Of a stretch of 64,000 nt of DNA, positions 16,809-60,761 are shown one piece after another. Source of the stretch: Tautonia marina (GTDB lineage: Bacteria > Planctomycetota > Planctomycetia > Isosphaerales > Isosphaeraceae); assembly GCF_009177065.1 (NCBI RefSeq), contig NZ_WEZF01000007.1, positions 124,001 through 188,000 on the forward strand, given 5' to 3'. Made by a program: the position numbers and the translations under genes. The stretch's first letter is position 1; every line of letters starts with the position of its first letter. Under the pieces are notes generated by a model, which worked only from the letters and a program-made list of their open reading frames with translations, was not told the DNA's origin and ran no database searches.

Positions 16809-17134
16809 GGTCGGACCTCCGGGCGGTCCGGGGTCGAGTCGGTGGGGGCGGATTTCGGTTCGGAGGTCGATGGGGTCGCATCTCGGCGACTTTGCCGCAG
16901 CGTCAGACTTGCATCGAGGATGCAGGAGGCCATGAGCAGCACGAAGCCGATCGTGACGATCCCGAAGGTCCACCACTCGACGGGTCGGTCGGGGGGCCAG
17001 CCGGGCCGATCTCCGCCTCGACCGACCAGGACGATGGCCATCGGCCCGCCGAAGGTCATCATCGTGAGGAGGATGAACAGGAGCATCGGCCGCAAGCGAG
17101 GAGGCAAGGCGGGGCCGGTCTTCGAAGGGCTCAT
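16805..17134 (-). CDS. Small two-helix membrane protein, unknown function
   Basis: A 109-residue protein with two hydrophobic helices, LLFILLTMMTFGGPMAIVLV at about 18-37 and WWTFGIVTIGFVLLMASCIL at about 54-74, and a polar Ser/Pro/Thr-rich tail. I do not recognise the family. It is translationally coupled on both sides: its ATG (17132-17134) overlaps the proS stop as ATGA with GAGGA upstream, and its stop overlaps the GTG of the WecA-like gene. The position suggests a partner of glycan-lipid assembly, but that is inference only. Confidence 0.78.
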   Translation of the reverse strand: MSPSKTGPALPPRLRPMLLFILLTMMTFGGPMAIVLVGRGGDRPGWPPDRPVEWWTFGIVTIGFVLLMASCILDASLTLRQSRRDATPSTSEPKSAPTDSTPDRPEVRP

Positions 17135-18912
17135 CCGGCAGTTCCTCGACGCGAGGCCCGCTGCTCGGCGCGCTCATCCACACGTTGCTGCTCGGCCTGC
17201 CGGGCAGTGATGATGTGGTTGACGACCTCCTGGGGAGCGTTATCGGCCGAGACGGTGAAGGCCTGTCCCTCGTGCCGCCACTTGAGCTCGATCTTGCTTT
17301 CCTTCAGGCCCCGCTCCCCGATGACGACCCGAAGCGGAATGCCGATCAGGTCGGCGTCCTTGAACTTCGGTCCCGGGCGCTGGTCACGGTCGTCGATCAG
17401 AACATCGACCCCGGCGAACTTGAGGGCACCGGCGACCTCGTGGGTCAATTTCATCACCTCGCCGTCGGGATCGACCTGCAACGGAACGATCAGCACTTCG
17501 TAAGGCGCGAGGCTCAGGGGCCAGATGATGCCGTTGGCGTCGTGGCCGGCCTCAACCGCCGCGGCGACGATCCGGTTCACGCCGATCCCATAACAGCCCA
17601 TGATCAGGGAGCCGGTCTTCCCCTCGGCATCCTGGAACTGAGCACCCATCGCGTCGGAGTACTTGGTGCCGAGCTTGAAGACGTGGCCAATCTCAATGCC
17701 GTTGCCGACCTTCAGCGGATCGCCACAGCGGGGGCAGGGGTCGTCGGCCTCGGCATTGCGGAGGTCCACGACGCGGTCGATCGAGAAGTCGCGGCCGGGG
17801 ACCACATTCGTGAGGTGGACGTCTTCGGTGTTGCCGCCGACGACGACGCGGGGCATGATCGCGACCGAAGGGTCAACCGCCATCGGGATTTTCAGATCGA
17901 CCGGGCCGAGGAATCCCATCGGCGCTCCGGTCGCCTTTTCGACGGTTTGCGGGTCGGCCGGTTCGAGCGTGACGGCGTTGAAGGCGCGTCGGACCTTCCC
18001 CTCGTTCGCCTCGTGATCGCCCCGGATGAGGGCGGCGACCGGCTTGCCGTCGGCGAGGAAGACGAGCAGCTTGGCCGTCTCCTTCGGCTTGACCTTGAGG
18101 AAGGAGGCGACCTCCTCAATGGTCCGCTTCCCGGGGGTCTCGACGGGAGAGGCCGGCGGGACATCGTTCGAGGCAGGGGGGTGACCGTCCTTGGCACCGA
18201 TCTCGGCCTTCTCGACATTCGCCGCGTAGCCGCACGATTCGCAGTGGATGAGCAGGTCTTCTCCCGACGGCGAGGGGACCATGAACTCGTGCGAGGCGTC
18301 GCCGCCGATCGGGCCACTCTCGGCCTCGACGGCAACGTAGGGGAAGCCGCAGCGGTCGAAGATGCGACAGTAGGCCTCGTACATGCGGTCGTAGCTGGCG
18401 TTCAGGTGATCGAGGTTTGCACCGAAGCTGTAGGCATCCTTCATCAAGAACTCGCGGGTCCGGACGATGCCGAACCGGGGCCTCGGCTCGTTACGAAACT
18501 TCGTCTGAATCTGATAGGCCGTGACGGGAAGCTGGCGGTAGGAGGTGATGAAGGCCCGGGCGATGTCGGTGATGACTTCCTCGTGCGTCGGGCCGAGGCA
18601 GACCTTCTTGTCGGCCCCCAGGTCGAACTTGATGAGCACCTCGCCCATCGTGCCAACGCGGCCAGTTTCCTCCCAGAGTTCGATCGGGTGGAGCGCGGGC
18701 ATCAGCAGTTCGAGCGCTCCGGCCTCGTCCATCTCTTGCCGGACGATCTGCTCGGCCTTCTTCAGAACTCGGAGTCCGAGCGGCAGGTAGGAGTACGTCC
18801 CCGCCCCGAGCTGACGGATCATTCCGGCTCGCAGCAGCAAGACGTGGCTCGGGGCCACGGCGTCGGCCGGAGACTCCTTCTGGGTCGGGATCAGGGCGTT
18901 CGACCAGAGCAC
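17131..18912 (-). CDS. proS: Prolyl-tRNA synthetase (bacterial type, with editing domain)
   Basis: A 593-residue class II aminoacyl-tRNA synthetase charging tRNA-Pro in the cytoplasm. Motif 1 lies in SYLPLGLRVLKKAEQIVRQEM, motif 2 in TKFRNEPRPRFGIVRTREFLMKD, and motif 3 in GCYGIGVNRIVAAAVE. The inserted editing (YbaK-like) domain occupies about residues 230-400 (EEVASFLKVKPKETAKLLVF). The C-terminal anticodon-binding domain carries VDVLIDDRDQRPGPKFKDADLIGIP. I start at a GTG at 18912, with GGGAG about 8 nt upstream, since VLWSNALIPT aligns with the usual M-x-WS-x-x-x-IPT beginning; a GTG 9 nt earlier is possible. It is the first gene of a unit with three envelope genes. Confidence 0.96.
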   Translation of the reverse strand: MLWSNALIPTQKESPADAVAPSHVLLLRAGMIRQLGAGTYSYLPLGLRVLKKAEQIVRQEMDEAGALELLMPALHPIELWEETGRVGTMGEVLIKFDLGADKKVCLGPTHEEVITDIARAFITSYRQLPVTAYQIQTKFRNEPRPRFGIVRTREFLMKDAYSFGANLDHLNASYDRMYEAYCRIFDRCGFPYVAVEAESGPIGGDASHEFMVPSPSGEDLLIHCESCGYAANVEKAEIGAKDGHPPASNDVPPASPVETPGKRTIEEVASFLKVKPKETAKLLVFLADGKPVAALIRGDHEANEGKVRRAFNAVTLEPADPQTVEKATGAPMGFLGPVDLKIPMAVDPSVAIMPRVVVGGNTEDVHLTNVVPGRDFSIDRVVDLRNAEADDPCPRCGDPLKVGNGIEIGHVFKLGTKYSDAMGAQFQDAEGKTGSLIMGCYGIGVNRIVAAAVEAGHDANGIIWPLSLAPYEVLIVPLQVDPDGEVMKLTHEVAGALKFAGVDVLIDDRDQRPGPKFKDADLIGIPLRVVIGERGLKESKIELKWRHEGQAFTVSADNAPQEVVNHIITARQAEQQRVDERAEQRASRRGTAG

Positions 18913-43159: not shown

Positions 43160-44626
43160 TCAGCCCAATCGGCCGGACAGAGCGGCAGACGTGTCGATCA
43201 GGTCACGAACAACGTGCCCATGCACATCGGTCAAACGCTGGTCTCGTCCACCGTGGCGGAAGGACAGTTGCTCATGGTCGAGCCCAAGTTGGTGGAGGAC
43301 CGTGGCGTGAATGTCGTGGATCGTCAGCGGGTGCTCGACCACTCGGTTGCCGAAGTCATCCGTCTGGCCAAAGGCAAACCCGCCCCGGAAACCGCCACCT
43401 GCCAGGAAGATCGAGTAGCCATCCACGTGATGATCGCGTCCTGCTCGCTCGGAAATGGCCGGGGTATGCGGGGTTCGTCCCATCTCACCGGCCCAGACGA
43501 CGATCGTCGAATCGAGTAACCCTCGGCGTTTCAAGTCAACGATCAACGCCGCAATCGGCTGATCAGAGATCAACGCATTCTCGGTGTGGTACTTCTTAAG
43601 TTCGCCATGCTGATCCCAGGGTGAATTGTTCGGATGAGTCAGCGGGCAGGTGATCTCGACGAACCGCACGCCTCGCTCGACAAGCCGACGGGCCCGGAGG
43701 CATTGCAAGGCGTAAAACCGCTGGTGGTCGTCCGGTCGATCCAGCCCGTAAAGCCGCCGGGTTTCCTCCGATTCTCCCGAGACGTCGGCCACTTCGGGGA
43801 CCGAGGTCTGCATCCGAAACGCGGTTTCGTAGTTCATGATCGCCGATTCAATCACGTCGCCATCCGTCGAGAGACGGGCGAAGGTGTCATCTTGCTCGGC
43901 GAGCAAATCGAGCTTGCGGCGCTGGATGGGAACCGGATCGCTCGGTTCGATCCCATCCACGGGGACGCCGCGAGATCGGATCATCGTTGCTCCATGAGAG
44001 GCCGGCAAATAGGCCGGGGCGAAATTCTCGAAACCGCCATTCGGAATCCAGTCATTATTCAGAAGCACATAACCTGGTAAGTCGGAGCGTTCCGAGGCCA
44101 GACCATAAGAAACCCAAGAGCCGAAACTCGGAGCCTGACCCGTGACTCGCCCGGTGTGCAAGAGAAGACTCTGCTGGCCGTGCAATGGTTGCTCGCCTTC
44201 GAGCGATCGGACCACGCACAGCTCGTCGGCACATTCGGCGAGGTAGGGTAGCAGATCACTGACCCACAAGCCCGCTTCGCCGCGCCGCCGGAATCGCCAC
44301 GGGCTTCCCATCCAGACACGCGACGCAGCCGATTGCGACTTCTTTGAAACGGCTTGCTCGCCAATCGCCTGCCCTTGATAACGGGCCAGCGCGGGCTTCA
44401 GGTCAAAGGTATCGACGTGGCTCGGGCCACCGTCCATGAAACAAAAGATAACGCTCCGTGCCCTGGCCGTTGAGCCGGTGTCTCCTCCCTGCGATTGTTC
44501 GGAGAGCAGTCCCGAGAGGGCCAGCATGCCGAATCCGCACGACGAGGTCCGCAGCCAATCGCGTCGGCTCGGCAAGGGAAGACGAGACGCAAGGTCCTGG
44601 GATTCCCGTCGTCCTCGGATAGTCAT
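43160..44626 (-). CDS. DUF1501 family protein (sulfatase-like), first pair
   Basis: A 488-residue exported protein. The N-terminus SRRDWLRTSSCGFGMLALSGLL is a Tat-type signal (RRDWL). DUF1501 has an alkaline-phosphatase/sulfatase-like fold: FCFMDGGPSHVDTFDLKP (metal site near residue 65), the block EMGRTPHTP near 395 and GRDHHVDGYSIFLAGGGFRGGFAFG after it; the HDIHATVLHQLGLDHEQL ending is usual. Its gene starts 31 bp after the stop of the PSD1 gene that precedes it, the common planctomycete pairing. Role in polymer or sulfated-glycan breakdown is a standing hypothesis, not a proven one. Confidence 0.92.
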   Translation of the reverse strand: MTIRGRRESQDLASRLPLPSRRDWLRTSSCGFGMLALSGLLSEQSQGGDTGSTARARSVIFCFMDGGPSHVDTFDLKPALARYQGQAIGEQAVSKKSQSAASRVWMGSPWRFRRRGEAGLWVSDLLPYLAECADELCVVRSLEGEQPLHGQQSLLLHTGRVTGQAPSFGSWVSYGLASERSDLPGYVLLNNDWIPNGGFENFAPAYLPASHGATMIRSRGVPVDGIEPSDPVPIQRRKLDLLAEQDDTFARLSTDGDVIESAIMNYETAFRMQTSVPEVADVSGESEETRRLYGLDRPDDHQRFYALQCLRARRLVERGVRFVEITCPLTHPNNSPWDQHGELKKYHTENALISDQPIAALIVDLKRRGLLDSTIVVWAGEMGRTPHTPAISERAGRDHHVDGYSIFLAGGGFRGGFAFGQTDDFGNRVVEHPLTIHDIHATVLHQLGLDHEQLSFRHGGRDQRLTDVHGHVVRDLIDTSAALSGRLG

Positions 44627-44656
44627 GGCAAGGGTCTCGGCTCGGGTCGCGACGGG

Positions 44657-47600
44657 TCAACGAAGGTAAAGGAATTCCTTGGTATTGAACAAGGTATGGG
44701 CGACATCTGCCCAGATCTCTGGCGCGGTGAGGACGTCTTCCGGCGCGATCGACCGTTCGGCGGCGAGGTCGTTGACCAGGCTCGACCAGCGGTCCTGTTC
44801 GGCCGGGTTCGGGCCTCGTCCCAGGGCCCCCTGAAACATCGTCGTCAGCTGATCCGCGACTGAATCTGCCGGGGAAGCTGCGACCCGAGCCCCCCACGAC
44901 GACGCCTGATCCGTAACAAACGGATCGTTCAGCAGCGCAAGTGCCTGGGTGGGGATGTTCGTTACGTCTCGCCTGCCGGTCGGAATTTTCGGGGGAGGCT
45001 GATTGAACAGCGCCAGGAATCGAGGCGGTTCCATCACGGTCAACTTCGTATAAAACGATCGGCGATTGTCGCCATCGACCGGACCTGAAAACAAGCGTTT
45101 CGAGGGATCTTCACTTGAGCGATGCGGATTGATCGGTGGTCCGTACAACCGGGGATCCAGCCGGCCGGACGCGGCAAGGATCGCATCTCGGATCGACTCT
45201 GCATCGAGCCTTCGAAGCGGATAATGAGCAAGAAGGCGGTTGTCGGGGTCGATCTCGGCAGCCTCCGGGATGGCCATGCTGCCCTGCCGGAAAGTCGCGC
45301 TCAGGACCAGTTCGCGAACCATCCGCTTGGTTGACCATCCCTCGTCCACCAGGCGGACTGCGAGCCAATCGAGCAATTCCGGATGCGAGGGGGGGGCGCC
45401 AAGCTTGCCAAAATCATCCGGGGATCCGACCAGACCAGCCCCGAAGGCCCATTGCCAGAGCCGGTTCACATAGACTCTCGCCGTGAGCGGATTGTCTGGC
45501 GAGGCGACCCTCTCGGCAAGCTCGCGGCGACCGCTTGCAACCGAGCGGAAGGCCGCATCCTCCGCATCGGCGGAAAGCACTTCCAGAAAACCTCTGGGCA
45601 CGGGAGGGCCAAGGTCTGCATAATTTCCGCGAATGTTGATTCGATCGTCGATTCCCTCGTCGAGATCCACCATCCCGTTGATGGTCTGCGGTTCCCGGAT
45701 TTTGCGCTCGGTCGTTCGATACGCATCGACTAGGGCTTGGAGGGCCGGGGGGGAGGTGTCGTAAAGGTGGTTGGGCAACAGTTCGTGATCGAGAAGCCAG
45801 TTCAGGAGGATGGTATCGTCGTCGTTGGCCTCATCAGCGGCCCAGCGATCGAGTGCAGCTCTGAACCATTGCTGATACGCCTCTGCGACAGCGGCCAGCG
45901 AGTCCGGCGAAGGACCATCGAACAACGAAACGAACCGGCCAAGTTCATCCTGAGGGATTCCGGCCTGCTCGCTCACCACGGCCCGTGTCACACCGAACCA
46001 GCTTCTCGGATCGGCGGCCTGTTCCTCGGAGCAAGCGCCGCCCAAACCGACTCGGGGAGGGAAGTTCGGGTTGCTGGTTTTCGTGGCCAGCTCGCGATAG
46101 ACCCGACGCCCCGTGAACTCGGGCAAGGCAGGGTAGCCCGACCATGCGGGAGCCTTACGGGCCAGGTACGTCTGTCGCTCGGTGAGGAAGGCGTTATCGA
46201 CCACCGTTCGCTCGGCCGAAAACTCACCGCCGCACACCTCCCAGTTCAACCAGGGTGAAGGCAACGCGTTAAGCATCGGCGACCGCAACGCACCGTTCAA
46301 TCGCGGAGAAAGTGCATGTGTGAATAAACCGGCCGGCAAGATAGCATCGAGAATTGCGTCTCCTTCGATCGCTACGGCAAAGTCTCCCGATCGGACGGGG
46401 CCATCACGGAGTCCTTCTCCTTCGGCCGACCATCCGGGCGGAACGCCGTTCGAAAAGTCGGCGACCACGGTGAACGACGCGGCATTCTGCTGAAGTCGTT
46501 GTTCTCGCTCCTGCGTATAGCCTGACGCAAGTTCGTCCCAGGTCGAGGCCAGGTCGGACCCCTCACGCTCCGCCTTAAGCATCGTCACCCAGGCGAACAG
46601 GGGATGCTCACGGGTCGGCTCCTCACCCGCACTCTGTACCGCTGCCGCCCAGAGATTCGAGGGGTCCGAGGAATCGGCCGAGGCGATCAGGGCATCGCCC
46701 CATCTAGCCGATTCCGGTCGCCACCAATCGGCCAGGGCATCGCGTAAGGAAGGCTTCAGCTCGCGAAGTTCGGTCAGGACCTCGGCATTGCGGTCACGAG
46801 TGTCAAGGGTCCGGGAAACCCATCGAGGGCTCATGAACACACCGGCCAGGGCGTGATAATCGCGCTGAGAGATGGCGTCGAGCTTGTGATCGTGGCAGCG
46901 GGCGCAGCCGACGGTCAGACCGAGAAACGCCTTGGAAAAGGCGTCGATCTTGTTATTAAGCATTTCCTGATGAATGCCGTCAAACTCGGCACTGTCGCCA
47001 TGCCGCTTCTCGCCGAGCTGGAAAAACATCGGTCCGGCAAGCGACTCAACGATCCCTTCGACCGGGTCGATCCGGGGATGCTCCAGCAAGTCGCCGGCGA
47101 TCTGCTCCCGGACGAGTTGATCAAACGGCACATCGGCGTTGAAGGCTCGCACGAGATAATCACGGTAGCGCCACGCCCCTTTGGCAGGGATGTCCCACTC
47201 GTAGCCGTAGGTGTCGCCGTATCGGACAACGTCCATCCAGTGCCTCGCCCAGCGCTCGCCGAAGTGAGGCGAATTGAGCAAGCGATCGACGAGCCGTTCA
47301 TAGGAGGAGGGCGAAGGGTCATCGAGGAACTCGTCCAGCGAGGTTTCGTCCAGCGGCAGACCCGTCAGGACAAACGCCAGGCGACGGGCCAGGACGGCGG
47401 GCTCAGCCGGCTCGGCCGGTCGGAGTCCTTCGCGGAGCAGGCGATCGAGGATGAAGCGGTCGACCGGACCTTGAGCCCATGTTGCGCCGTCGGGCTCGGG
47501 AACCGAAGGGCTGACGACGGGCTGAAGGCTCCACCAGGTGCGCCGCTCGGCCAGCTTGATCGACCACTCGTCCTGGGCGGATTCCTCGGGAGAGGGAAGC

Positions 47601-48031
47601 GAGACTCTCGGGTCGTACGCCCCGTCGAGAATCCAGGAGCGGAAGTCGCGGAGAATCTCGTCGGAAAGCTTCGGGGCCTTTCTCGGCATTTCGAGGCCCG
47701 GCTCGGCGTGCTCCATGACGAGCACGAGCAAACTCTCGTCGGGATTGCCCGGCTCGATCGCTGGACCAGAGTGGCCGCCTTCGAGTAATCCCTCGCGCCA
47801 GTCGACCCGGAGGCCACCCGCCTGTTTGGCCGCGCCGTGGCATTCCGCGCAGTGGAGGATGAGCGCAGGGCGAATCCTCTCCTCGAAGAACGCGTTTCGG
47901 GTCACATCGTCGCGGGCGTCGACGTGGGTGCCGAGCGCAAGTGACACAAGGGAGACCAGGGCCAGAAGTCTGGCCCATCGCCTCCCTCGTCGAATTCTGG
48001 CCGACACGCGATCCGGACCGGCTGGCAGCAT
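44657..48031 (-). CDS. PSD1 and planctomycete cytochrome C domain protein, first pair
   Basis: A 1124-residue secreted protein with a signal peptide to about residue 40. Order: a cytochrome c-like PSCyt1 region with the heme motif CAECH (Cys61), DUF1549/PSCyt2 (about 185-400; RWARHWMDVVRYGDTYGYE and VGCARCHDHKLDAISQRDYHAL, the latter a second CxxCH), a variable middle with a beta-sandwich look, and DUF1553/PSD1 (about 815-1110; NPLTARVYVNRLWQWAFGAGLVGSPDDFGKLGAPPSHPELLDWLA). GGGGGAG lies 9 nt before the ATG. The DUF1501 partner follows directly. Presumed periplasmic redox and glycan-degradation function. Confidence 0.93.
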   Translation of the reverse strand: MLPAGPDRVSARIRRGRRWARLLALVSLVSLALGTHVDARDDVTRNAFFEERIRPALILHCAECHGAAKQAGGLRVDWREGLLEGGHSGPAIEPGNPDESLLVLVMEHAEPGLEMPRKAPKLSDEILRDFRSWILDGAYDPRVSLPSPEESAQDEWSIKLAERRTWWSLQPVVSPSVPEPDGATWAQGPVDRFILDRLLREGLRPAEPAEPAVLARRLAFVLTGLPLDETSLDEFLDDPSPSSYERLVDRLLNSPHFGERWARHWMDVVRYGDTYGYEWDIPAKGAWRYRDYLVRAFNADVPFDQLVREQIAGDLLEHPRIDPVEGIVESLAGPMFFQLGEKRHGDSAEFDGIHQEMLNNKIDAFSKAFLGLTVGCARCHDHKLDAISQRDYHALAGVFMSPRWVSRTLDTRDRNAEVLTELRELKPSLRDALADWWRPESARWGDALIASADSSDPSNLWAAAVQSAGEEPTREHPLFAWVTMLKAEREGSDLASTWDELASGYTQEREQRLQQNAASFTVVADFSNGVPPGWSAEGEGLRDGPVRSGDFAVAIEGDAILDAILPAGLFTHALSPRLNGALRSPMLNALPSPWLNWEVCGGEFSAERTVVDNAFLTERQTYLARKAPAWSGYPALPEFTGRRVYRELATKTSNPNFPPRVGLGGACSEEQAADPRSWFGVTRAVVSEQAGIPQDELGRFVSLFDGPSPDSLAAVAEAYQQWFRAALDRWAADEANDDDTILLNWLLDHELLPNHLYDTSPPALQALVDAYRTTERKIREPQTINGMVDLDEGIDDRINIRGNYADLGPPVPRGFLEVLSADAEDAAFRSVASGRRELAERVASPDNPLTARVYVNRLWQWAFGAGLVGSPDDFGKLGAPPSHPELLDWLAVRLVDEGWSTKRMVRELVLSATFRQGSMAIPEAAEIDPDNRLLAHYPLRRLDAESIRDAILAASGRLDPRLYGPPINPHRSSEDPSKRLFSGPVDGDNRRSFYTKLTVMEPPRFLALFNQPPPKIPTGRRDVTNIPTQALALLNDPFVTDQASSWGARVAASPADSVADQLTTMFQGALGRGPNPAEQDRWSSLVNDLAAERSIAPEDVLTAPEIWADVAHTLFNTKEFLYLR

Positions 48032-48129: not shown

Positions 48130-49317
48130 TCAGACCTCGGGATTCGTCAGGCGACCGAGAAAGAGGATGCTGCCGGTGTGCGTGTCTCGGATCAGGAACA
48201 GGAACGGATGATCGGCGCGGAAGACCTTGGGCTCGCTCGGCAGGGCGGATCGCACACCCACGACAATGCCGGTGGCCGCGGCGGCCTCGGTTCCTTCCTC
48301 GTTCACATCGACAAAAGCCTTGTGAATGGCGGCCGTGATGTACAGCTCTCGGCTGCCGTCCATGCCAGAGAAATCTGCCTGGCCCGGTTGGAACGGCAAC
48401 GACATTCCGAGCTTGCTCAGTGCCTGATTCAGGGTGAATTGCGAGCTAAGCGAGAAGCGGGGCAATGCCACCGCGACCTCCTGACGCCGAAGCCCGGCGA
48501 TCCAGTGGTCAAGCTGCTCGGCGTTGAGCTTCGCCTCCAGGGCTCCGAGGCCATCCCTCGTGTCGGGCAAGAGGACGACCATGGACAGATCACCCTTCCC
48601 ATAAGGGAGTTCAAGGATCTTCAGATCCTCTCCCTCACCATAACGGTAGGAACCGCGACGGTTCATCAAGGGGACCATGACTTCGTCCTCACCAGGGAGG
48701 AAAAAGGGGGCGTCGCGGGTCGCCTGATCAAGGAAGGGAGCCGCCCAGTCTCCCTTGAAGTGGATGGCGTTGGTGAGGACAAGGCGGGTCAGCGAATCCA
48801 ACACACCGGGAGGGATGAGGTTCTGGATCTTACCCTTCGTCTGGTCTTCGACCCATGAGTTGATCTCGTCACGGGCCTCCTCGGTGGCCCGGGCGAAATC
48901 GACGGTCTGTAACTCGGCGTCATACGCATCTCGGGTCAGTGCGAGGTAGCCAGGGACGAAGCCGTAGCCCTGCTGGCCCCAGAGGCGGTTGGCGACGTCG
49001 AGTTGATACCCTGTGTCGTCCTTCGTTTCGAGCAATCGGGTATTGAGCGCGCCAAAGGCAGGATGCAATTCGTCCGAAGGCAGTGTGAGATGCAAGACGT
49101 CAGCCATTTGCTCGGCCGTCTCGCCTGCGGCACCACCCAGGGTCATCGCCAGGGCCGACGAGATGCTGTAGGGCGAGAAGAACAGGTTGCCCGGCTCCTG
49201 GGCAAGCTGACCGTAGAGGTCGAGCGCGAACTGTGAGTTCCCTCGGACGACCGCATCCATCGGCTCGTCCTCCGGTTCCAAACCGCAGACGATTGCCAGG
49301 AAGAAGCACCCAAGCAT
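48130..49317 (-). CDS. Serpin-family protease inhibitor
   Basis: A 395-residue serpin, a suicide inhibitor of serine (or cysteine) proteases. Family blocks: NLFFSPYSISSALAMTLGGAAGETAEQM, LVLTNAIHFKGDWAAPF, ILELPYGKGDLSMVVLLPD, and the C-terminal FRADHPFLFLIRDTHTGSILFLGRLTNPEV. The reactive loop has an inhibitory hinge EEGTEAAAATG; counted from P15 Gly, P1 is Arg356 and P1' is Ser357 (GVRSALP), as in inhibitors of trypsin-like enzymes. I start at the ATG at 49317 because AGGAGG (49324-49329) sits 6 nt upstream. A GTG 15 nt earlier would add MRRSV, a better signal-peptide head. Bacterial serpins are uncommon. It lies between two PSD1/DUF1501 pairs. Confidence 0.93.
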   Translation of the reverse strand: MLGCFFLAIVCGLEPEDEPMDAVVRGNSQFALDLYGQLAQEPGNLFFSPYSISSALAMTLGGAAGETAEQMADVLHLTLPSDELHPAFGALNTRLLETKDDTGYQLDVANRLWGQQGYGFVPGYLALTRDAYDAELQTVDFARATEEARDEINSWVEDQTKGKIQNLIPPGVLDSLTRLVLTNAIHFKGDWAAPFLDQATRDAPFFLPGEDEVMVPLMNRRGSYRYGEGEDLKILELPYGKGDLSMVVLLPDTRDGLGALEAKLNAEQLDHWIAGLRRQEVAVALPRFSLSSQFTLNQALSKLGMSLPFQPGQADFSGMDGSRELYITAAIHKAFVDVNEEGTEAAAATGIVVGVRSALPSEPKVFRADHPFLFLIRDTHTGSILFLGRLTNPEV

Positions 49318-49323
49318 GACAGA

Positions 49324-49329
49324 CCTCCT
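49324..49329 (-). promoter_or_regulatory. Ribosome-binding site of the serpin gene
   Basis: AGGAGG on the minus strand with a 6-nt spacer to the ATG at 49315-49317. It lies inside the alternative GTG-initiated reading and so decides the start, unless the GTG at 49332 is used with a leader that has no visible ribosome site. Confidence 0.6.
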
Positions 49330-49412
49330 CACGAATCGAGTTGGGATTGGTTCTTCCCTGGATTACGTTCGGAAGCGGGGTTTCTTAGGTCGATTGCGAG
49401 CGTTGGAAGCGA

Positions 49413-50891
49413 TTAGGCGAGAATCGGCGTGATCAGGTTGCCATGAACGTCGGTCAGGCGGCGCTCGATGCCGTTGTGGTAGTAGGTCAACCGGGTGTGG
49501 TCGAGCCCGAGCAGGTGCAGAATGGTGGCGTGGAAGTCGTGAACGGTCGTCACGTTTTGCTCGGCCTTGAAGCCGAAGGGGTCGGTTTCACCGTAAGTGA
49601 ACGGAGCATGCACCCCAGCCCCGGCGAGCCAGCAAGTGAAGCCGAAGGGGTTATGGTCGCGGCCGTAGGTGCCGAGCTGGAACATCGGCATGCGTCCGAA
49701 CTCGGTGCAGAACACAACGAGGGTTGATTCGAGCAAGCCCCGTTGTTTCAGGTCGCGGATCAGGCCGGCGACCGGCTGATCAAGGATTGCACCGTGTCGA
49801 TCATATTGTTCCTTGAGCTGGCTGTGCCCGTCCCAGTTCAAGTTCCCCCCTGACGCATACGCACCATTGAACAACTGAATGAAACGGACCCCTCGCTCGA
49901 CCAGGCGACGGGCCAGGATACAGTTGCGAGCGAAAGCAGCCTTGATCGGCTCGGGATCGTCGGCACCGTAGAGGCGAAGGATGTGGTCCGGCTCGTTCTC
50001 GATCGCGGTCGTCTCGGGCACCGATAGCTGCATGCGGGCGGCCAGCTCGTAACTGGCGATGCGGGCGGCAAGCGACTCGTCGCCGGGGTACTGCTGGGCG
50101 TGGTCGCGGTTCAGGGCAAGCAGGGCATCACGCGCGGCGGTATCGGTCTCGACCGAGAGATCAGCCGGGCGAGCGAGGTGGCTGACCGGCTTGGTCGTGC
50201 TGAAGGGGGTTCCCTGAAACGCTGCAGGCAGGAAGCCGTTGGCCCAGTTGTTCGGGCCGGCCTGCGGCATCCCGCGCGGGTCTTCGATGGCGACGAAGGA
50301 GGGAAGCTCCTGGTTCTCGCTGCCCAGGGCATAGGTGAGCCACGAGCCCATCGACGGGAAGCCTTCGGTCGTGAAGCCGGTGGACATGACGTTCTCGCCC
50401 GGCCCGTGCGTGTTCGACTTCGTGGTCAGGGCGTGGAGGAAACAAAGGTCGTCCGCCAGCTCGCCCAGGTGCGGCAAGAGGTCGGAGGTCATCTTGCCCG
50501 ACTGTCCCCGAGGCCGGAATTTCCAGAGCGGCGCAGCCAGATTCCCGTTCTCTCCCTGGAAGGAGACGAGCCGCTCATTGCCCGGCATCGGTTTGCCGTC
50601 GTACCGGATCAAATCCGGCTTGTAGTCAAACGTATCGACATGGCTCAGTGCTCCTGCCACAAACACGACGATGACGTTCTTCGCCTTCGGCTCGAAGTGC
50701 GGAGGGCGAGGGGCGTGGGGGCGTTTCGGGTCGATCTGGGGGCGGTCGGACACCTCACTGGCCGCAAGTAAACGCTCCTGGGCGAGCATGGAGGCCATGG
50801 CGATGCCGCTCAGCCCGTCGAATGTTCTGGAGAGAAAGCCGCGGCGATCGAGCAAGCGGAGACCGCTGAGTGACGGCCGGGGTCCGGGCAT
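49413..50891 (-). CDS. DUF1501 family protein (sulfatase-like), second pair
   Basis: A 492-residue exported protein with a Tat-like start [22 protein letters not shown]. It shares the DUF1501 fold with the first copy: [20 protein letters not shown] near residue 70, [43 protein letters not shown] near 400-440, and [34 protein letters not shown] at the end. I start at the ATG at 50891 with GGGAG 7 nt upstream; an earlier ATG at 50921 has a poorer site. Forty bp separate it from the stop of the upstream PSD1 gene. The two DUF1501 proteins are clearly different in sequence, so this is not a recent duplication. Confidence 0.91.
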
Positions 50892-50931
50892 GGCGACGCT
50901 CCCGAAAGGCAAGACGCTCATCCTGCTGAAA

Positions 50932-53748
<2,817 letters not shown>

Positions 53749-53970
53749 GGCGGCGTTCTCCCCATCGCAAAACGGATGGTTGAGCAGCGTCCCGATCACA
53801 AGACTCGAGCCCATCGCGGAGACTCACCGCAGGCATCGGGCGAGTCTTTGGGAAACGTTCCCATGTCAAACCCGAGTTTAACCGTGATGGGCGTTGGGGA
53901 GCAACGCGGCAGGACATCGGAGCGGCGGAGATCACACCAGCGAATCCACCGCTCCGGTCGAGCCAAAGGG

Positions 53971-56900
53971 TCACGCTTCCCACCCCTTGAGGCGTTCGAC
54001 GACCTCCATCACCTCTCGCCTCCGCTTCTCGAACAGGGCGAAGGCCGCGAGGATGAGAATCCCGGCCACGATCCCGCTGGCGGCCCAGATCCAGGTCTGA
54101 CGCAGATCAACCGCGGCGTACCAGATCATGGCAAAGATTGATAATCCCAAAAACGCCAGGCCCAGGAACAGGAACCCCCGCACCCGAAGCGCAATGCCCG
54201 CGAAGATGCCGAGCAACGACAGACCGCCCAGCACCAGGGGAAGCCACGGGTCCTGCGCCACGCCGTTGAGGATCAGGTCGGCCGTCGAGGACAGATACAC
54301 GGCCCCCGCCGCCACGTGGCGCACCGAGGCCGATTGCGCTGCGCTGAGGCGATCGCGGCTCAAATACGCCCCGACCAGCACACAGAGGGCCGGCGGGACG
54401 ACCCAGAACTGCGGATGCTCCATCAGGCCAAACCCCTCGCGACGGCCGAGGACCGTCCAGAGCCCCGCGTTGAACGCCAGGGCCGCCACGGCTCCGAAGC
54501 CGATCGACGACCGCAAGAGGGCGAGCGTCGCATACACGCCACCGGCCAGGACGAAGAAGACCGTGTCCTCTCCCGGCGTCGGCTCCAGCCAGAAGGCCCC
54601 AAGCAACGGCAAGACGGGCAAGACGGCACCGGTGCGCTCCAGGGGGTCGGCCAGCACAAGCCTCCCCTGGCGCCGGAACAGCTCTCCCAGGCCCACCCCC
54701 GTAAACGCCAGGCCAATCACGATCAACGGCCAGTAGCGGGCAAAGATGCCCGTGAACAGCCAGGGCATCGTCAGTCCCAGGTGCAAGGCCAGCAGGGCAA
54801 GCAGCCCTTCCGCCCCGTAAACGTAGACCGTTCTCCGAGACTCGGGAAGCCCCAGGGGATCGCGACCGGGGACGATCGCCGCGAAGAGACTCGCGACCAC
54901 CGCTCCCAGCAGCGTCACCGCGACGGCCACGAGCCCCGGGGCCGAGATCGCCACGGCCGATCCCTCAATTTTCGCAAACAGCTCGCCGCCAATCACCACA
55001 ACCAGGGCCACCGCCGCCAGGCCCAGCAAGGGCGGCACCAGTCGCCGGGCGGCTCGGGCCCAGTGGACGGCCCGAGGGGCGATCTTGACCAGTCCGACTC
55101 CGTATCCGGCGGCCGATGCCAGCAGGGCGACCATCACGGCGACGCCTCGATCGAGCACGACCGTGGCCGAACTCGGATCGATCCAGGCCCATCCCCAGGC
55201 CACCGCCCCCGCCGAACCGAACCCGAGCGCCGTGGCTCGGACGATCGATCGCCGTTCTCCCCTCGCCAGCAAACCGACTGCCAACGCCGTCGCCAACGCC
55301 GCCTTGCCTGCGGAGAAGCGCGGCACGAGATCCGGATGGGTTGACACGACCCCGAAGGCCAGTCCCACCACCACCGCCGAGAGCATGATGTTCGCCGGGA
55401 TCAGCCAGCCAAGGCCGACATCCGGGTTGTCAGTGTCGGTCGATCGCGGCATTCTCAAGCGGTCGCCCAGGCGTCGGAACCCAGTCCGGGCGCTCCAGAG
55501 GGCTCCGGCAATCACCGCGTAGACCGCCAGCACCACCGCACCGATCCAGGCGAGCATCGATCCGGGCAGATCAAACCCGGCCACGAACCAACCCGCCGCA
55601 CCAAGCCCGAGAAGGTAAAGGCCGGCCACCTCGGACCGCGACCGCTCATCCCAGAACCCGGCCGACAGGGCAATCCCCACCGCGCCGATCGTCACCGGCC
55701 AGGCCAGGCCGAGCGTCGGCCCATCCCAGCCTCCTGCCGCATCACCGAGCACCCAGAACATCACCATCACAACGAGCGACAGCACGGCTCCCCAGGCTGC
55801 AACTCGATGGAAGGGGACCGCTCCAGGGCGCAAATCGAGCGATCGAGCCGGTCGGATCACCCACAGTTCAATGACGAGCCAGAGCGGTACGGGCACAGCC
55901 AGGGCGATCATATTTATGATCATAAACCCATCAAAGGTCTCCCCAAGCCACGCATTCGAATCCCCGAACCACCAGAGCGTGGTTCCCAGGTTCTGCAAGA
56001 TCCCGGCCGCATACAGGAATCCTCTCCCCGCCGACCACCCCGCCAGGGCCGTCGAGAGTACGACCGAGGCCGCCAGGCCCCCGACCGTCCACCAGAGCGG
56101 ATCGTGCGGGTCGCTCTCATACGCTCGCAGGGCGAATAGAACAATCACTCCGGTGGTGATCGCGGCCCATCGGGTCACGCCCTTGCCGCGCCCTTCGCGT
56201 GGCACCGCCGCCCGCAACCCGCGCCGATTCCAGGCGACCAGCAGCAGTCCGCACGCCGTCACGGCCTGAACGATCATCATCGCATGGTAGGTCAGCCAGT
56301 TCCCCGCATCGCTCCGGGCCGTCCCAAAGGCCAGCAGCGCACCGATCGCCAGCGTCCACGGAGCGAGCATGTCGATCGAGAACGAGCGGGCAGCCCCCTT
56401 CGCCTTGCCGAGCACCGCGCCGAGGGTCAAGATCACGGCGAGCCAGCCGACAGGATCGGCAATCGCCTCCCGCGCAGGCATCGGCAACGGATCGACGAGC
56501 AACCCAAACCCGCCGACCAGCACCACGAGCCCCACAAACGCGACCGGCAAGGCCACCTGCACCGCCATCGCGGCCCCTCCCGGCGAGAGCTTCTCCACCT
56601 CCCACCGTCGCCGACCGACCTCAACGACTCCCATCCAGCCGATCGCATACGCTGAACCGACAATCGCATTGAGCTGCGCCAGCCGGAGCCAGAGCATCGG
56701 ATCGTCCGGTACGGTCGGCACCCTTCCCGAGAGCAACAGCCCGACCGTCGCGCCGAAGCTCAACAGCAGGCCCCCGGCCAGGGCAAACCCCGACGATCGC
56801 TCCCGGATCGCGTAGCCAACCAGCGTCAGGGCGACCAGCAGGATCGGCGGCGCGTACGACGCCGCCAGGCCAATCCGACCGAAGAACGACCCCGGCGACG

Positions 56901-59900
56901 GCCCCAGAATCGGATCGCCCCTCAACACCGAGCCGACCACCAGGGCCGACACCGCCACCAGAGCCAGCGCCCCCATCGCAATCATCAGACCGCCGGCCAC
57001 TCGCATGACGCCCGATCGGCCTGATTTCTCGCCCGTCTCCCACATCCTGGCAACCGCGAGGGCCACAGTCCCAAGCAGGGCCAGCACGATGAACACCAGA
57101 CCGACCAACTCCCACAGATCCGACAGGTCCGGATCGATCGGATGCACCCAGAGGGCCGCGCTGGCGACAAACGACGCCATCGCCATCACAGGCAGGGCGG
57201 CGATCGCCACCACCAGGCCGATCGCCATTGGCCCGAGCCCGCCCAGCCGCTCGGGTTCGATCCGCCAGCCGATCCGATCGGCCACCGAGCCCAGCCATCC
57301 CCGAGCCCAGATCGGCACCGAGAGCGCCAGCAAGGCCAATGCTCCTCCCCATCGCAGGGCCGAGGCCACTGCCACATCCCCTTCCCATCGACCGGCCGCC
57401 AGAGGGACGACCATCGAAGCCACCAGCATCGCTCCCAGCAGGTCGAGCCTCCGGAACCGCTCCCACTGCCCGAGCACGAGCGTCAGCAGGACCGATCCGA
57501 GCAAGAGCCACGATCCCAGGCCAAGCGCCGCGTCATGGGCGATCCCAGGAATTTCGAATGCCCGGGCCGCCGGCACAAGCCGTCCCTCGATCGTCTCGTA
57601 CCCTCCTTGAAATGCTGCGAGGTCAGCAAACACTCGTGGGGAAAGTTCCTGAGCCACCCCCGGCACCACGCCGTACACGGCCAGGCCGACCAGCACCACC
57701 ACGGCACTCCAGAGCGTCAGCCGGTCAAACGTCGGCCAGGAGGGCTCCATCAGCCGTCGGGCCGTCACCCGGCGATCCGGCTTCTGCCCACGCTCGGCCA
57801 CCGCTCGAATCCCGATCCGCACGCCCACCCAGCCCAGGGCGAACAGGGCCAGGGCAATCCCCTCGGCCTGAAGGGTGCGCGGATCGAGCCAGAGCGTCGT
57901 CTCATCAACGAGCCAGGCACGTTGATCGACGAACCACGGACGCCCTTCGATCCACGACGCCACCGCGAAGCCCACCGATCCGGCCATCGCCGCCTGGAAC
58001 GCCCAGAACATCCCCGGCGACACGAACCGCCAGGCGAGCACACCCCAGACGCCCGAGAGCCATAGCAGATGCACCGCCAGATCCATCGGCGCGGCCGTCG
58101 GCACGAGCCAGACCAGGCGAACCGCCGCCGCCACCGAGGTCAGGAAGGCGGAGAGAACCAGGGCCCGCCCGATCGGGCCAAAGTCGCCGGAACCTCGCCA
58201 TCGGCTCCCGAGCATCATCGGGACGAGCGCGGCGATCGTCGCGTGTCCGAGCAGGCTCGACGACCAGGGCAACGCCAGGCCCCACGCCTCGCCATACCGG
58301 AAGACGAACCCCTGAACCAGGGCCGCGAGCAGCAATACCGAGGCAACCCAGCCCAGGGCACCCGGCTCCGCAGACCGGCCCATGCCGCCCGCCGCAGGCA
58401 TCCGGGACGCCACGACCGCCCCGAGCATCGCCCCGATCGCCAGGGCACCATAGGCCCACGTCGCGCCGGTCGGATCGCCCGGTATCCCCAGGCCGTGCCA
58501 TGTCACCAGGCCCAGCCCGAGCAAACCGGCCAGGACCGAAACCAGGGCAATGGCCCGGGCTTCCAGCGTCCGACCGAGCCGAACGCTCCCCGCCACCATC
58601 GCCTCGAGGAACAGGGCAATCCCCACCAGCGCCGAACCGCTTCCGGCAGAGGTCAGCGCCGCCGTCATTTCCGCCGATTCGCCTCCGGTCCATGGCAAAT
58701 CGCCGGAGATCACCTGCGTCACCACCACCGCCGCCAGGGCGAGCGACGCCCCCCCCAGTGCCAGGGCGGCGGGCAAAGCGAAGGCCAGGGCGATGGCCAC
58801 CAGTACCGCGGCATTCACGGCCGCCACCACGGTCATTCCGGCCGGTTCGGGCCAGGCTAGGGCCACGCCGCCGAGCATCACCAGCGCCCCGGCCGCGGCG
58901 ATCGACCCGCCCGCGATCCGATGCACGACCATCGACGACGAGGCCTGTCTCCATCCCATCAGGCCCGCCGCCAAGCTCGGCATGCCGGCCAGCGGAGCCA
59001 GTACGGCCAGTTGACGCAGCACGCTCACCGTCGATCCAGTCCGTTGCAACAAGGCACCGATCGCCACCGCCGCGGCGAAGGCCGTCAGCCCGAGCGTTCG
59101 AAAGAGCCGATCCGCCGCCGCCTCATCGAATTCCAGGGTGCGACGCTCCGCGAGCATCGCGCCGAGGGTCGCCCCCGCATGGGCCAACAAGGGCAGGGCA
59201 CCGATCGCCAGCAGCGCCGCCCCTTCCAGGCCCGATCGCCCCCACCATCCGACCGCCAGAATCGCCGCCGATGGCATGACCACTCCCATCGCCGTCGCCC
59301 AGGGGACCGAAGCCCGGATCGCCTGCGACCCCTTGCCGATCAACACTGCGAACCCCGTCAGCGTGATCAGCTCCCCGACCAGGAGCGGGATACCGACCCC
59401 TTCCGTTCCTCGGGCCAGCACAACCGTCAGCACGCTGAGCGGCACGAGCAAGGTTGCGATCCCGAGGAGCCCTCCCGCAGTCGTCGCCAGCCCCCAACGC
59501 CGATCGGCATGACGACCGACCCCGAAGAACGCCGCCACCACCCCATTCGCCAGCGCGAACCGGAGGATCGGCCGCTCGGCAATCCGGTCCCAGTAGCCGA
59601 TGACCAGGGCCAGCGAGCAGCCGACGATCAAGAGGCCCCCGACCAGCTCTCCCCAACGGATGTTCCGCTCCTCCATGAACGCCGCGAGCAGGCCGCCAAG
59701 GCTCGTCTTGCGTCCCGTCGCTGCGGGCTCCTCGGATGCGGGAACGGAAACGGGTTCCGGCTCCGCCTGCTTCGCCTCGCGGTAGGCACGGACACGGGCG
59801 GCCACATCCAGTCGGGGGGTGATCGCCTCCTGAGGCGTTCCCTCCACCCCTGGAAATTCCGGCTCGGTCGGCGAGATCGGAGCAGAGACGGGCTCGGGCT

Positions 59901-60342
59901 GCTCGATCGGAGCTGGAGCAATCGGCCGGGGCGTCCTCGGGGCCGATGGTTCCTTCGCACGAACGGCCGATGGCCCTGAGAGCTGTTCCCACTCGGCAAT
60001 CAACCCCTGCGCGATGCGATCCGAGTCCTCGACCGAGAGCAAACCGACCTCTCGGTAGCGACGGAGCCGCTTCAACAACTGTCCGACTAATGCTCGGGTC
60101 TGTCGGGAATCGTCCGGCCTCGGAGGGTCCGGCCAGTGGCAGACAAGACAGCCGCGTCCGTTCGGCCGCACCTCCCAGACTTCTCCGCATTGGGGGCAAA
60201 GCGCAGTCGTGACCGGCTGAAGCGGTTCCGAACCGATCGCCCTCCTGATCGCCCGAATCGTGGCCCAAAACGCCACCCAGATCCCGTGCCCCACCAGAAC
60301 GACGATCACCAGCACGATCAGGAACCAGATCAGCTCATCCAT
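53971..60342 (-). CDS. Giant polytopic membrane protein (2123 residues) with N-terminal zinc ribbon
   Basis: A single open frame of 2123 residues. It begins with a membrane helix (about 5-27, IWFLIVLVIVVLVGHGIWVAF), then a four-Cys zinc ribbon at Cys49, Cys52, Cys65 and Cys68 (CPQC...CLVC), a Pro/Glu-rich linker (about 130-210), and from residue 228 (NIRWGELVGGLLIVGCSLALVIGYWDRI) an almost unbroken series of hydrophobic helices to the C-terminus, probably more than 50. The end, FEKRRREVMEVVERLKGW, and the ERNIRWGELVGG opening resemble DUF2157/DUF2339-type membrane proteins, which are much shorter. No enzymatic motif recognised. I start at the ATG at 60342; the extension upstream is Arg-rich. 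Its amidohydrolase neighbour is 419 bp upstream. Confidence 0.8.
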   Translation of the reverse strand: MDELIWFLIVLVIVVLVGHGIWVAFWATIRAIRRAIGSEPLQPVTTALCPQCGEVWEVRPNGRGCLVCHWPDPPRPDDSRQTRALVGQLLKRLRRYREVGLLSVEDSDRIAQGLIAEWEQLSGPSAVRAKEPSAPRTPRPIAPAPIEQPEPVSAPISPTEPEFPGVEGTPQEAITPRLDVAARVRAYREAKQAEPEPVSVPASEEPAATGRKTSLGGLLAAFMEERNIRWGELVGGLLIVGCSLALVIGYWDRIAERPILRFALANGVVAAFFGVGRHADRRWGLATTAGGLLGIATLLVPLSVLTVVLARGTEGVGIPLLVGELITLTGFAVLIGKGSQAIRASVPWATAMGVVMPSAAILAVGWWGRSGLEGAALLAIGALPLLAHAGATLGAMLAERRTLEFDEAAADRLFRTLGLTAFAAAVAIGALLQRTGSTVSVLRQLAVLAPLAGMPSLAAGLMGWRQASSSMVVHRIAGGSIAAAGALVMLGGVALAWPEPAGMTVVAAVNAAVLVAIALAFALPAALALGGASLALAAVVVTQVISGDLPWTGGESAEMTAALTSAGSGSALVGIALFLEAMVAGSVRLGRTLEARAIALVSVLAGLLGLGLVTWHGLGIPGDPTGATWAYGALAIGAMLGAVVASRMPAAGGMGRSAEPGALGWVASVLLLAALVQGFVFRYGEAWGLALPWSSSLLGHATIAALVPMMLGSRWRGSGDFGPIGRALVLSAFLTSVAAAVRLVWLVPTAAPMDLAVHLLWLSGVWGVLAWRFVSPGMFWAFQAAMAGSVGFAVASWIEGRPWFVDQRAWLVDETTLWLDPRTLQAEGIALALFALGWVGVRIGIRAVAERGQKPDRRVTARRLMEPSWPTFDRLTLWSAVVVLVGLAVYGVVPGVAQELSPRVFADLAAFQGGYETIEGRLVPAARAFEIPGIAHDAALGLGSWLLLGSVLLTLVLGQWERFRRLDLLGAMLVASMVVPLAAGRWEGDVAVASALRWGGALALLALSVPIWARGWLGSVADRIGWRIEPERLGGLGPMAIGLVVAIAALPVMAMASFVASAALWVHPIDPDLSDLWELVGLVFIVLALLGTVALAVARMWETGEKSGRSGVMRVAGGLMIAMGALALVAVSALVVGSVLRGDPILGPSPGSFFGRIGLAASYAPPILLVALTLVGYAIRERSSGFALAGGLLLSFGATVGLLLSGRVPTVPDDPMLWLRLAQLNAIVGSAYAIGWMGVVEVGRRRWEVEKLSPGGAAMAVQVALPVAFVGLVVLVGGFGLLVDPLPMPAREAIADPVGWLAVILTLGAVLGKAKGAARSFSIDMLAPWTLAIGALLAFGTARSDAGNWLTYHAMMIVQAVTACGLLLVAWNRRGLRAAVPREGRGKGVTRWAAITTGVIVLFALRAYESDPHDPLWWTVGGLAASVVLSTALAGWSAGRGFLYAAGILQNLGTTLWWFGDSNAWLGETFDGFMIINMIALAVPVPLWLVIELWVIRPARSLDLRPGAVPFHRVAAWGAVLSLVVMVMFWVLGDAAGGWDGPTLGLAWPVTIGAVGIALSAGFWDERSRSEVAGLYLLGLGAAGWFVAGFDLPGSMLAWIGAVVLAVYAVIAGALWSARTGFRRLGDRLRMPRSTDTDNPDVGLGWLIPANIMLSAVVVGLAFGVVSTHPDLVPRFSAGKAALATALAVGLLARGERRSIVRATALGFGSAGAVAWGWAWIDPSSATVVLDRGVAVMVALLASAAGYGVGLVKIAPRAVHWARAARRLVPPLLGLAAVALVVVIGGELFAKIEGSAVAISAPGLVAVAVTLLGAVVASLFAAIVPGRDPLGLPESRRTVYVYGAEGLLALLALHLGLTMPWLFTGIFARYWPLIVIGLAFTGVGLGELFRRQGRLVLADPLERTGAVLPVLPLLGAFWLEPTPGEDTVFFVLAGGVYATLALLRSSIGFGAVAALAFNAGLWTVLGRREGFGLMEHPQFWVVPPALCVLVGAYLSRDRLSAAQSASVRHVAAGAVYLSSTADLILNGVAQDPWLPLVLGGLSLLGIFAGIALRVRGFLFLGLAFLGLSIFAMIWYAAVDLRQTWIWAASGIVAGILILAAFALFEKRRREVMEVVERLKGWEA

Positions 60343-60761
60343 CGCTCGTCTCCCACTCGTGCGGTTCGACCTCTTGATCGGAGCCAGGTCGCCGGCCGAT
60401 GCTGTCACGCTCAAGATTCGGAAACGGTGCTCGGGGGCCTCGTTCCCATGCCCCTCGCGCACAACGACGCCCGACGCGGGCCGCCCTCCTCCTCCCCTCC
60501 TGACAATCGGGCGACCGGTCGTGCCACGACCGAGCATCTCGGCCGGAGTCGATTCCGACGGGCAACCGCTCCGTCCTCTCCGTCGGGAACGGATTCGAGC
60601 ACCGTTCCCGAGTCAGGTCCGCAGTGACCGATCACTCGGTAACATCGGGAATTCGGTCCGCACTGCGACCCCGACTCCCGTCCAAAATCGGGGCCAATCG
60701 GGATGGCGCTCGCCCATCACCACGAGCGAGCCCCCGCGCCCCCGACGCCCGCCCCGTCCCA
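60343..60761. other. Intergenic region upstream of the giant membrane protein gene
   Basis: About 420 bp, very G/C-rich. A minus-strand frame stays open from the giant protein gene to 60537, and several plus-strand frames are open, none with family similarity. It holds the leader of the giant protein gene. Nothing else recognised. Confidence 0.5.

Follow-up and report, generated by a model that had tools for sequence, protein, structure and literature searches.

What is a bacterial protein of 2123 residues made of, if almost all of it lies in the membrane, and what could it do there? The question is raised by P0001, which is encoded in a stretch of 64,000 nucleotides from Tautonia marina (contig NZ_WEZF01000007.1; hereafter the window, whose coordinates are used throughout). 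The gene is a single unbroken frame on the minus strand, running from 60342 down to 53971, and all parts of the protein given below lie on that strand. P0001 is very probably a giant membrane protein of about 59 helices, with a ribbon head and a C-terminal tail that both face the cytoplasm, built largely of four-helix repeats and bearing conserved end modules that distantly resemble DUF2157. Its role is a more tentative matter; a distant kinship with a bacterial protein that protects membranes, of which P0001 would be a giant form, is possible.

Topology and predicted structure

A sequence-only reading of this DNA had proposed dozens of transmembrane helices (TM) and no sizeable soluble domain after about residue 228. 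Hydropathy of the single P0001 sequence gave 58, 54, 43 and 28 helices at thresholds of 1.0, 1.3, 1.6 and 1.9, respectively, and a scan of family-averaged hydrophobicity gave 59, 58, 57, 53, 48 and 32 helices from lenient to strict settings, with 57 at the chosen threshold. The pattern of lysine and arginine residues (K+R) switched sides at two places, each holding a further weak helix (residues 690-708 and 2009-2027), and these were added after the flip in charge alternation had been noticed, giving a final topology model of 59 helices. In this model, inside loops carry a mean of 3.08 K+R against 0.97 in outside loops (30 loops each), and the alternation holds at 55 of the 58 steps counted. 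A permutation test of the charge pattern gave 0 of 20000, a result not independent of the two added helices, as both were introduced after the flip had been seen. Both are helical in the AlphaFold2 models.

Two AlphaFold2 models, each calculated from an alignment of 57 sequences, cover residues 195-1190 (mean predicted local distance difference test, pLDDT, of 86.3; predicted template modelling score, pTM, of 0.76) and residues 1090-2123 (mean pLDDT 87.1, pTM 0.69). All 58 helices from TM2 to TM59 are at least 70% helical in one of the models, which contain in addition two extra helix pieces (residues 1091-1107 and 1485-1500). TM1 (residues 3-25; 60268..60336), assigned by hydropathy and topology as an N-terminal anchor with its N end out, lies outside the models. 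Past residue 228 no large soluble domain was found in P0001; the longest outer loop, placed by topology and the AlphaFold2 model, comprises only residues 898-941 (57520..57651), with two short predicted strands (915-918 and 921-924). Both proposals of the sequence-only reading hold in these models, and the helices are anything but few. P0001 thus appears to have about 59 membrane passes, which to our knowledge would place it close to the top of the helix numbers put forward for any single chain.

Structural similarity search against the PDB using Foldseek left both models without a match at E 0.001. Most of the top matches listed are, judging by their titles, α-solenoids or designed helical repeats. 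Superposition of the C-half model gave Z 10.9 with 7rdr_A, with a root-mean-square deviation (rmsd) of 17.0 over 373 residues, and Z 10.8 with 8ga7 (rmsd 6.2 over 323), whereas the N-half model gave Z 10.1 with separase (rmsd 20.9 over 508 residues) and Z 9.5 with 8ga7 (rmsd 7.2 over 340). As a Z under about 13 from this superposition tool may, for helical repeats, reflect merely a common arrangement, the predicted shape is termed solenoid-like and no more. By sequence, no solved chain was matched at E 1 by P0001 or by one DUF2339 protein, and the family profile A2 matched 13 solved chains at E 0.18-0.99, all within its first 195 positions, which hold the head and linker.

Four-helix repeats

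The sequence-only reading had further suggested that P0001 might be a chain of repeated membrane modules, and an internal repeat search came out positive, more weakly in the N half. Windowed profile self-comparison aligned residues 1164-1309 with residues 1420-1558 (P 3.8e-6, score 53.5), along with other pairs, compared to a score of 30.5 for the best reversed control. The repeat unit consists of four helices and 107-143 residues, with one two-helix phase slip along the chain; among such units, 16 of 351 pairs score above the best of 108 reversed controls (24.1).

The clearest repeats are found in the C-half membrane array (residues 1099-1819, TM28 to most of TM49; 54886..57048), which, like its N-half counterpart, was delimited by topology, models and repeats. 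Basic inside loops return there every four helices, at spacings of 143, 129, 122, 129, 129, 135, 107 and 112 residues. Four in-register alignments scoring at least 25 within the C half fall at multiples of four helices and none at half phase; across the two halves none falls at multiples of four and five fall at half phase, as expected if one two-helix slip sits near TM25-TM27. Within the N-half array (residues 311-1098, TM5-TM27; 57049..59412) no in-register unit pair reached 25, so the case for a repeat in this half depends on how it aligns with the C half. By eye, two self-comparison matches lie off the four-helix phase, namely 1002-1157 with 948-1081 and 1179-1317 with 223-340. Altogether, a P0001 built largely of repeated four-helix units is supported, with weaker evidence in the N half.

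A conserved gene family of planctomycetes

The longest mechanical open reading frame (ORF) would begin at 60537 (2188 residues), and the start was placed at MDELIW because the 89% identical ortholog L022 begins at the matching position. The coding sequence so defined (53971..60342) is open for all 2123 codons, in agreement with the sequence-only reading, and frames of similar length recur in independent genomes. Its guanine-cytosine (GC) content at the three codon positions is 0.71/0.53/0.81, near the values of three neighbour genes, and this coding signal is uniform along the gene save for a short final block. Compared to L022, the ratio of nonsynonymous to synonymous substitution rates (dN/dS) is 0.173 for the gene as a whole, with 0.247 for the first 200 residues and 0.024 for residues 1821-2123, indicating that purifying selection is strongest in the C-terminal cap. 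The gene of P0001 is genuine and not an artefact. A terminator scan found 5 sites against 4.6 expected from shuffling, and a promoter scan found one promoter-like site within the gene, with 0.2 expected.

P0001 has matches in 14 of 59 genomes (its own included), three of them weak. A search of genome contigs with profile A1, built from 11 members, gave 119 relatives among 133 pattern matches, of which 78 loci were kept. These relatives belong mostly to several orders of Planctomycetota, and also to records labelled Blastocatellia, Pyrinomonadaceae, Deltaproteobacteria and Verrucomicrobia. The isolates Aquisphaera insulae JC669 and Aeoliella straminimaris ICT_H6.2 are among those that carry the gene. 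Profile A1 matches 18 of 294 genomes sampled across the phylum and, in the comparison of gene presence among Planctomycetia, 93 of 248 genomes (the own one included). The family is widespread and strongly conserved in planctomycetes.

The family alignment was drawn from 110 frames in 105 loci, 66 of which were retained as full-length (a frame of more than 1700 residues, with a match that begins no later than model position 140 and ends no earlier than 2018) and together with P0001 make up 67 rows. L075, L080, L082, L153 and L154 were excluded as duplicates, L088 was kept though it touches a contig end, and the starts of frames were assigned by rule. The rows measure 1746-2666 residues (median 2059), form 63 clusters at 90% identity, with L114 and L155 identical, and contain 47-67 helices each (median 54; single-sequence hydropathy at 1.3). 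Shorter distant relatives of about 1230 residues, such as L034, retain recognisable ends. Another distant relative, of 2039 residues (L033:5824-11943), carries TPR sequence close to its N terminus (residues 165-224; PF14559, E 4.4e-6). Five related loci (L086, L094, L123, L125 and L126) are broken across two frames, which may be draft-assembly errors or true breaks.

Relation to DUF2157 and DUF2339

The family is common in Planctomycetia, yet P0001 has no Pfam or NCBIfam match near a cut-off, the best being at E 1.9 and E 0.54, respectively. The sequence-only reading had likened its two ends to DUF2157- or DUF2339-type proteins. Search with hidden Markov models (HMM) did not bear this out for P0001 itself, since neither PF10101 (DUF2339; cut-off 33.6 bits) nor PF09925 (DUF2157; 32.4 bits) was found in it at E up to 10, in a program, HMMER, whose filters drop most weak matches; PHROGs and PADLOC searches returned nothing at E 0.1. 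One of 23 diverse members scanned matches PF09925 (L034, E 8.8e-6) and one PF10101 (E 1.6e-5), and none of ten members scanned singly, P0001 included, matches PF10101. The PF09925 match of L034 reaches 25.9 bits as a protein and 31.0 in the genome search, both under the 32.4-bit cut-off. Among openly accessible literature on DUF2339, DUF2157, Arc3A and many-helix membrane proteins, we found no title or abstract opening that names the giant family.

Profile comparison gave a different picture of the ends. The DUF2157 set comprised 16 of 20 loci after a length filter (proteins of 331-671 residues), and for both DUF2157 and DUF2339 the most hydrophobic frame at the match was taken. Three parts of DUF2157 match the giant family in the same order along the chain: residues 2-40 with 80-118 (probability 18.5, weak), 52-155 with 233-337 (38.5) and 361-439 with 2036-2117 (49-64). 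The C-end match has a probability of 75 with the whole profile and 86.5 in the module run, and it stands at 85 when the comparison starts from the family and at 49-64 when it starts from DUF2157; the corresponding values for the N-end match are 1.8 with the whole profile, 27.6 with the N module alone, 50 and 38.5. Reversed controls reached at best a probability of 4.9 (P 0.008). The likeness to DUF2157 thus seems firm at the C end and modest at the N end, where conservation and profiles outline a DUF2157-like membrane module (residues 216-310; 59413..59697) with N227, W230, E232, W283, T288 and P301 conserved. Moreover, the Gly...E+.RR end of DUF2157 is common to several members of the giant family. 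The two differ greatly in size, as the 16 aligned DUF2157 proteins have 331-671 residues and P0001 has 2123, without a PF09925 match.

The link to DUF2339 is weaker. Its N-end match reached a probability of 89 when the whole profile was used, where the reversed control gave 32 over 9 columns, and fell to 0.3 when the N module was run by itself; owing to this loss it is not relied on. The C-end match has a probability of 37.5 from the family side and 27-33 in a second comparison, with reversed controls at 4.2 at most. Direct HMM search of the N and C modules against the collected DUF2339 and DUF2157 proteins gave no match, the sole row (E 0.58) coming from a reversed control. Locally built models of the two families gave weak single-sequence matches, to L088 at E 6e-4 and to L151 and L149 at E about 0.003; Pfam shows no DUF2339 in L088 and no DUF2157 in L151 or L149. 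DUF2339 proteins resemble P0001 in having very many transmembrane helices and a similar C terminus, with Gly in the last helix and a basic tail. Those collected here (loci L035-L054) also repeat internally, with periods of about 128 and 250 residues at profile level (P 3e-8 against 2e-3 for the reversed control), a kind of repeat that the giant family shows too. The repeat of about 128 residues suggests that proteins of the type of Arc3A, a DUF2339 protein of Pseudomonas aeruginosa, are built likewise and may also be four-helix arrays. Compared to P0001 with about 59 helices, Arc3A has 35 predicted ones; P0001 also lacks a PF10101 match, and the N-end profile link is unstable.

Given the profile-level likeness to DUF2157, the weaker one to DUF2339 and the lack of a Pfam match, P0001 is best described, as far as sequence profiles can tell, as a probable giant distant relative of the DUF2157/DUF2339 group and a member of neither Pfam family. 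What stands of the earlier proposal is the DUF2157 likeness of both ends, seen at profile level in both directions (with the family as query, C-end probability 85 and N-end 50).

N-terminal ribbon and C-terminal cap

The N-terminal four-cysteine ribbon noted in the sequence-only reading is present (residues 49-68; 60139..60198), with two CxxC knuckles, CPQC at 49-52 and CLVC at 65-68, at short spacing. It is followed by a cytoplasmic helical stretch and a Pro-rich linker (residues 85-215; 59698..60090), both assigned from sequence and poorly conserved. Ribbon-type models of Pfam and NCBIfam all stay below their cut-offs in P0001 (Desulfoferrod_N 8.4 of 23 bits, TIGR00319 10 of 36 bits). Ribbon-like heads may have joined the DUF2157/DUF2339 group more than once. 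A CxxC...CxxC head is found in 39 of the 67 full-length rows; since the other 28 lack it, the suggested regulatory head is less supported as a necessary one, and is better described as optional and, according to the topology model, cytoplasmic. A CPNC knuckle also occurs in the N-terminal part of L038, a DUF2339 protein.

The C-terminal cap (residues 1820-2110, TM50-TM59; 54013..54885), delimited by conservation, dN/dS and profiles and DUF2157-like at its end, is the most constrained part of P0001. Among the 67 rows, H1854 is kept in 66, Y1937 in 65, N1958 in 61, Y2016 in 66 and S2019 in all; these residues lie near the middle of four different helices, H1854 and S2019 at similar membrane depth. 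Q1978 and E2105, both in loops, are likewise kept in all 67 rows. Distant members deviate, with T at 1854 and L at 2019 in L033, and P at 2019 in L034. We infer that the conserved mid-membrane polar residues form a putative specific lipid-handling site.

Possible role and competing explanations

The best analogue found for P0001 is probably Arc3A. According to PMC8926400, Arc3A guards against the phospholipase toxin Tle3 and prevents the accumulation of lysophospholipids by a mechanism that its authors call unknown, suggesting sequestration; protection against lipase effectors was reported later (PMC12663445). In build the two proteins are alike, with many helices, repeats and a membrane part that holds no sizeable soluble domain. 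We tentatively favour an explanation by analogy, in which P0001 would be an envelope-protecting membrane scaffold that works like Arc3A: a long membrane-embedded wall that would hold or turn over damaging amphiphiles such as lysophospholipids, with the four-helix repeats as scaffold, the conserved cap and its mid-membrane polar residues as a specific lipid-handling site, and the ribbon as a lineage-specific cytoplasmic docking head. As a function, Arc3A-like envelope protection is possible, though less likely than not. A more specific form of it is speculative still: a giant membrane machine, namely a transmembrane solenoid of some fourteen four-helix units and about 59 helices, grown by repetition from a DUF2157-like ancestor into a curved bilayer wall with one C-terminal polar site for lipid binding or processing. 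If true, this machine would parallel, independently, the PIEZO blades in its architecture and Arc3A in its role. The shared repeat build would offer a concrete structural hypothesis for membrane protection by Arc3A-type proteins.

Genome content gives hints of replacement between the giant family and DUF2339, confounded by kinship. DUF2339 exceeds its cut-off in 63 of the 248 class genomes and was not found in the own genome, in a search whose control matched in 2 of 14. Counting all 93 matches, both families occur together in 15 of 248 genomes against 23.6 expected (p 0.010), and the 69 strong members of the giant family (E 2.9e-47 or better; the next is at 6.7e-26) share 7 genomes with DUF2339 against 17.5 expected (p 5e-4).

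Several observations weigh against an Arc3A-like role. The avoidance fades at genus level, where 8 of 130 genera hold both families against 12.5 expected (p 0.10), and 15 genomes hold both if every match is included. That P0001 is homologous to DUF2339 is uncertain, given the fall of the N-end probability from 89 to 0.3. A search of the own genome for Arc3B (DUF3999) found none, with a model whose control matched nowhere. All-against-all comparison of the ORFs around 89 loci, with flanks of at most about 8 kb, gave 25 largest neighbour groups of which the largest occurs in 10 of the 89 loci, Aas, LplT and Arc3B not being searched for; by eye, these groups are common families or are limited to closely similar loci. 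With none of these groups present at many loci, the gene's surroundings offer no tie to lipid repair. Finally, a site as conserved as that of the cap might just as well serve catalysis or belong to a transport path.

The alternative that survives best, though rather unlikely, is a sensor of membrane stress or tension, in which the four-helix array would sense the state of the bilayer and signal to the cytoplasmic head or the cap, in the way proposed for the transmembrane domain of LiaF and for the PIEZO blades. The four-helix repeats, the DUF2157-like ends and a ribbon head that is cytoplasmic in the topology model all fit such a sensor. The LiaI-LiaF-TM domain has four transmembrane helices, and the transmembrane part of LiaF has been called DUF2157 (PMC11237479). 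PIEZO blades, as described in PMC10275567, are arrays of nine four-helix units within one giant chain of 38 transmembrane helices, a likeness by analogy; PIEZO is a eukaryotic ion channel. P0001 has no sequence match to a solved chain, and profile A2 matched solved chains at E 0.18 or worse, within its head region or linker. The fold-search matches listed do not include PIEZO, which does not imply its exclusion. Against a sensor, moreover, the head is missing from 28 of 67 rows, and the comparison of neighbours showed no widely recurring candidate for a regulator.

A transporter, flippase or pump for lipid or polysaccharide, with the cap as transport core and the array as extended support, is unlikely. 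It would account for the conserved mid-membrane polar residues of the cap and the many transmembrane helices, and ten of the 50 Foldseek matches listed for the N-half model are membrane pyrophosphatases, though at a probability of 0.06-0.13. Apart from these, the fold matches listed brought up no conspicuous membrane pump or transporter except QacA over 53 residues, an absence that excludes nothing. However, neither P0001 nor 22 other members matched a transporter family at E 0.01, most top fold matches listed are solenoid or designed repeat proteins by title, and no partner gene recurs widely.

Quite improbable is an intramembrane enzyme, for instance for acyl transfer or lipid hydrolysis, with its putative site in the cap around H1854 and S2019. 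The near-invariance of these two at similar depth, together with Y1937, N1958 and Y2016, and the dN/dS of 0.024 in the cap would suit a catalytic centre, but neither S2019 nor H1854 is kept in every distant member, as the substitutions in L033 and L034 attest. Lastly, an overlong frame produced by fused genes, a frameshift or mis-assembly, which the extreme length and the five split-frame loci might suggest, is ruled out by full-length open frames of similar size in independent genomes, the dN/dS of 0.17 and the uniform coding signal.

Surroundings of the gene in the window

Within the window, a DUF1549/DUF1553 and DUF1501 pair lies downstream of P0001, and upstream of it is an amidohydrolase gene. 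A serpin gene (PF00079, E 5.7e-123; 48130-49332, minus strand) lies between two such DUF1549/DUF1553 and DUF1501 pairs (49413-53814 and 43160-48031). Farther off, at 13243-17183 on the minus strand, a gene for a Wzy_C protein (O-antigen ligase) adjoins one for a family 4 glycosyl transferase, perhaps as part of a polysaccharide locus.

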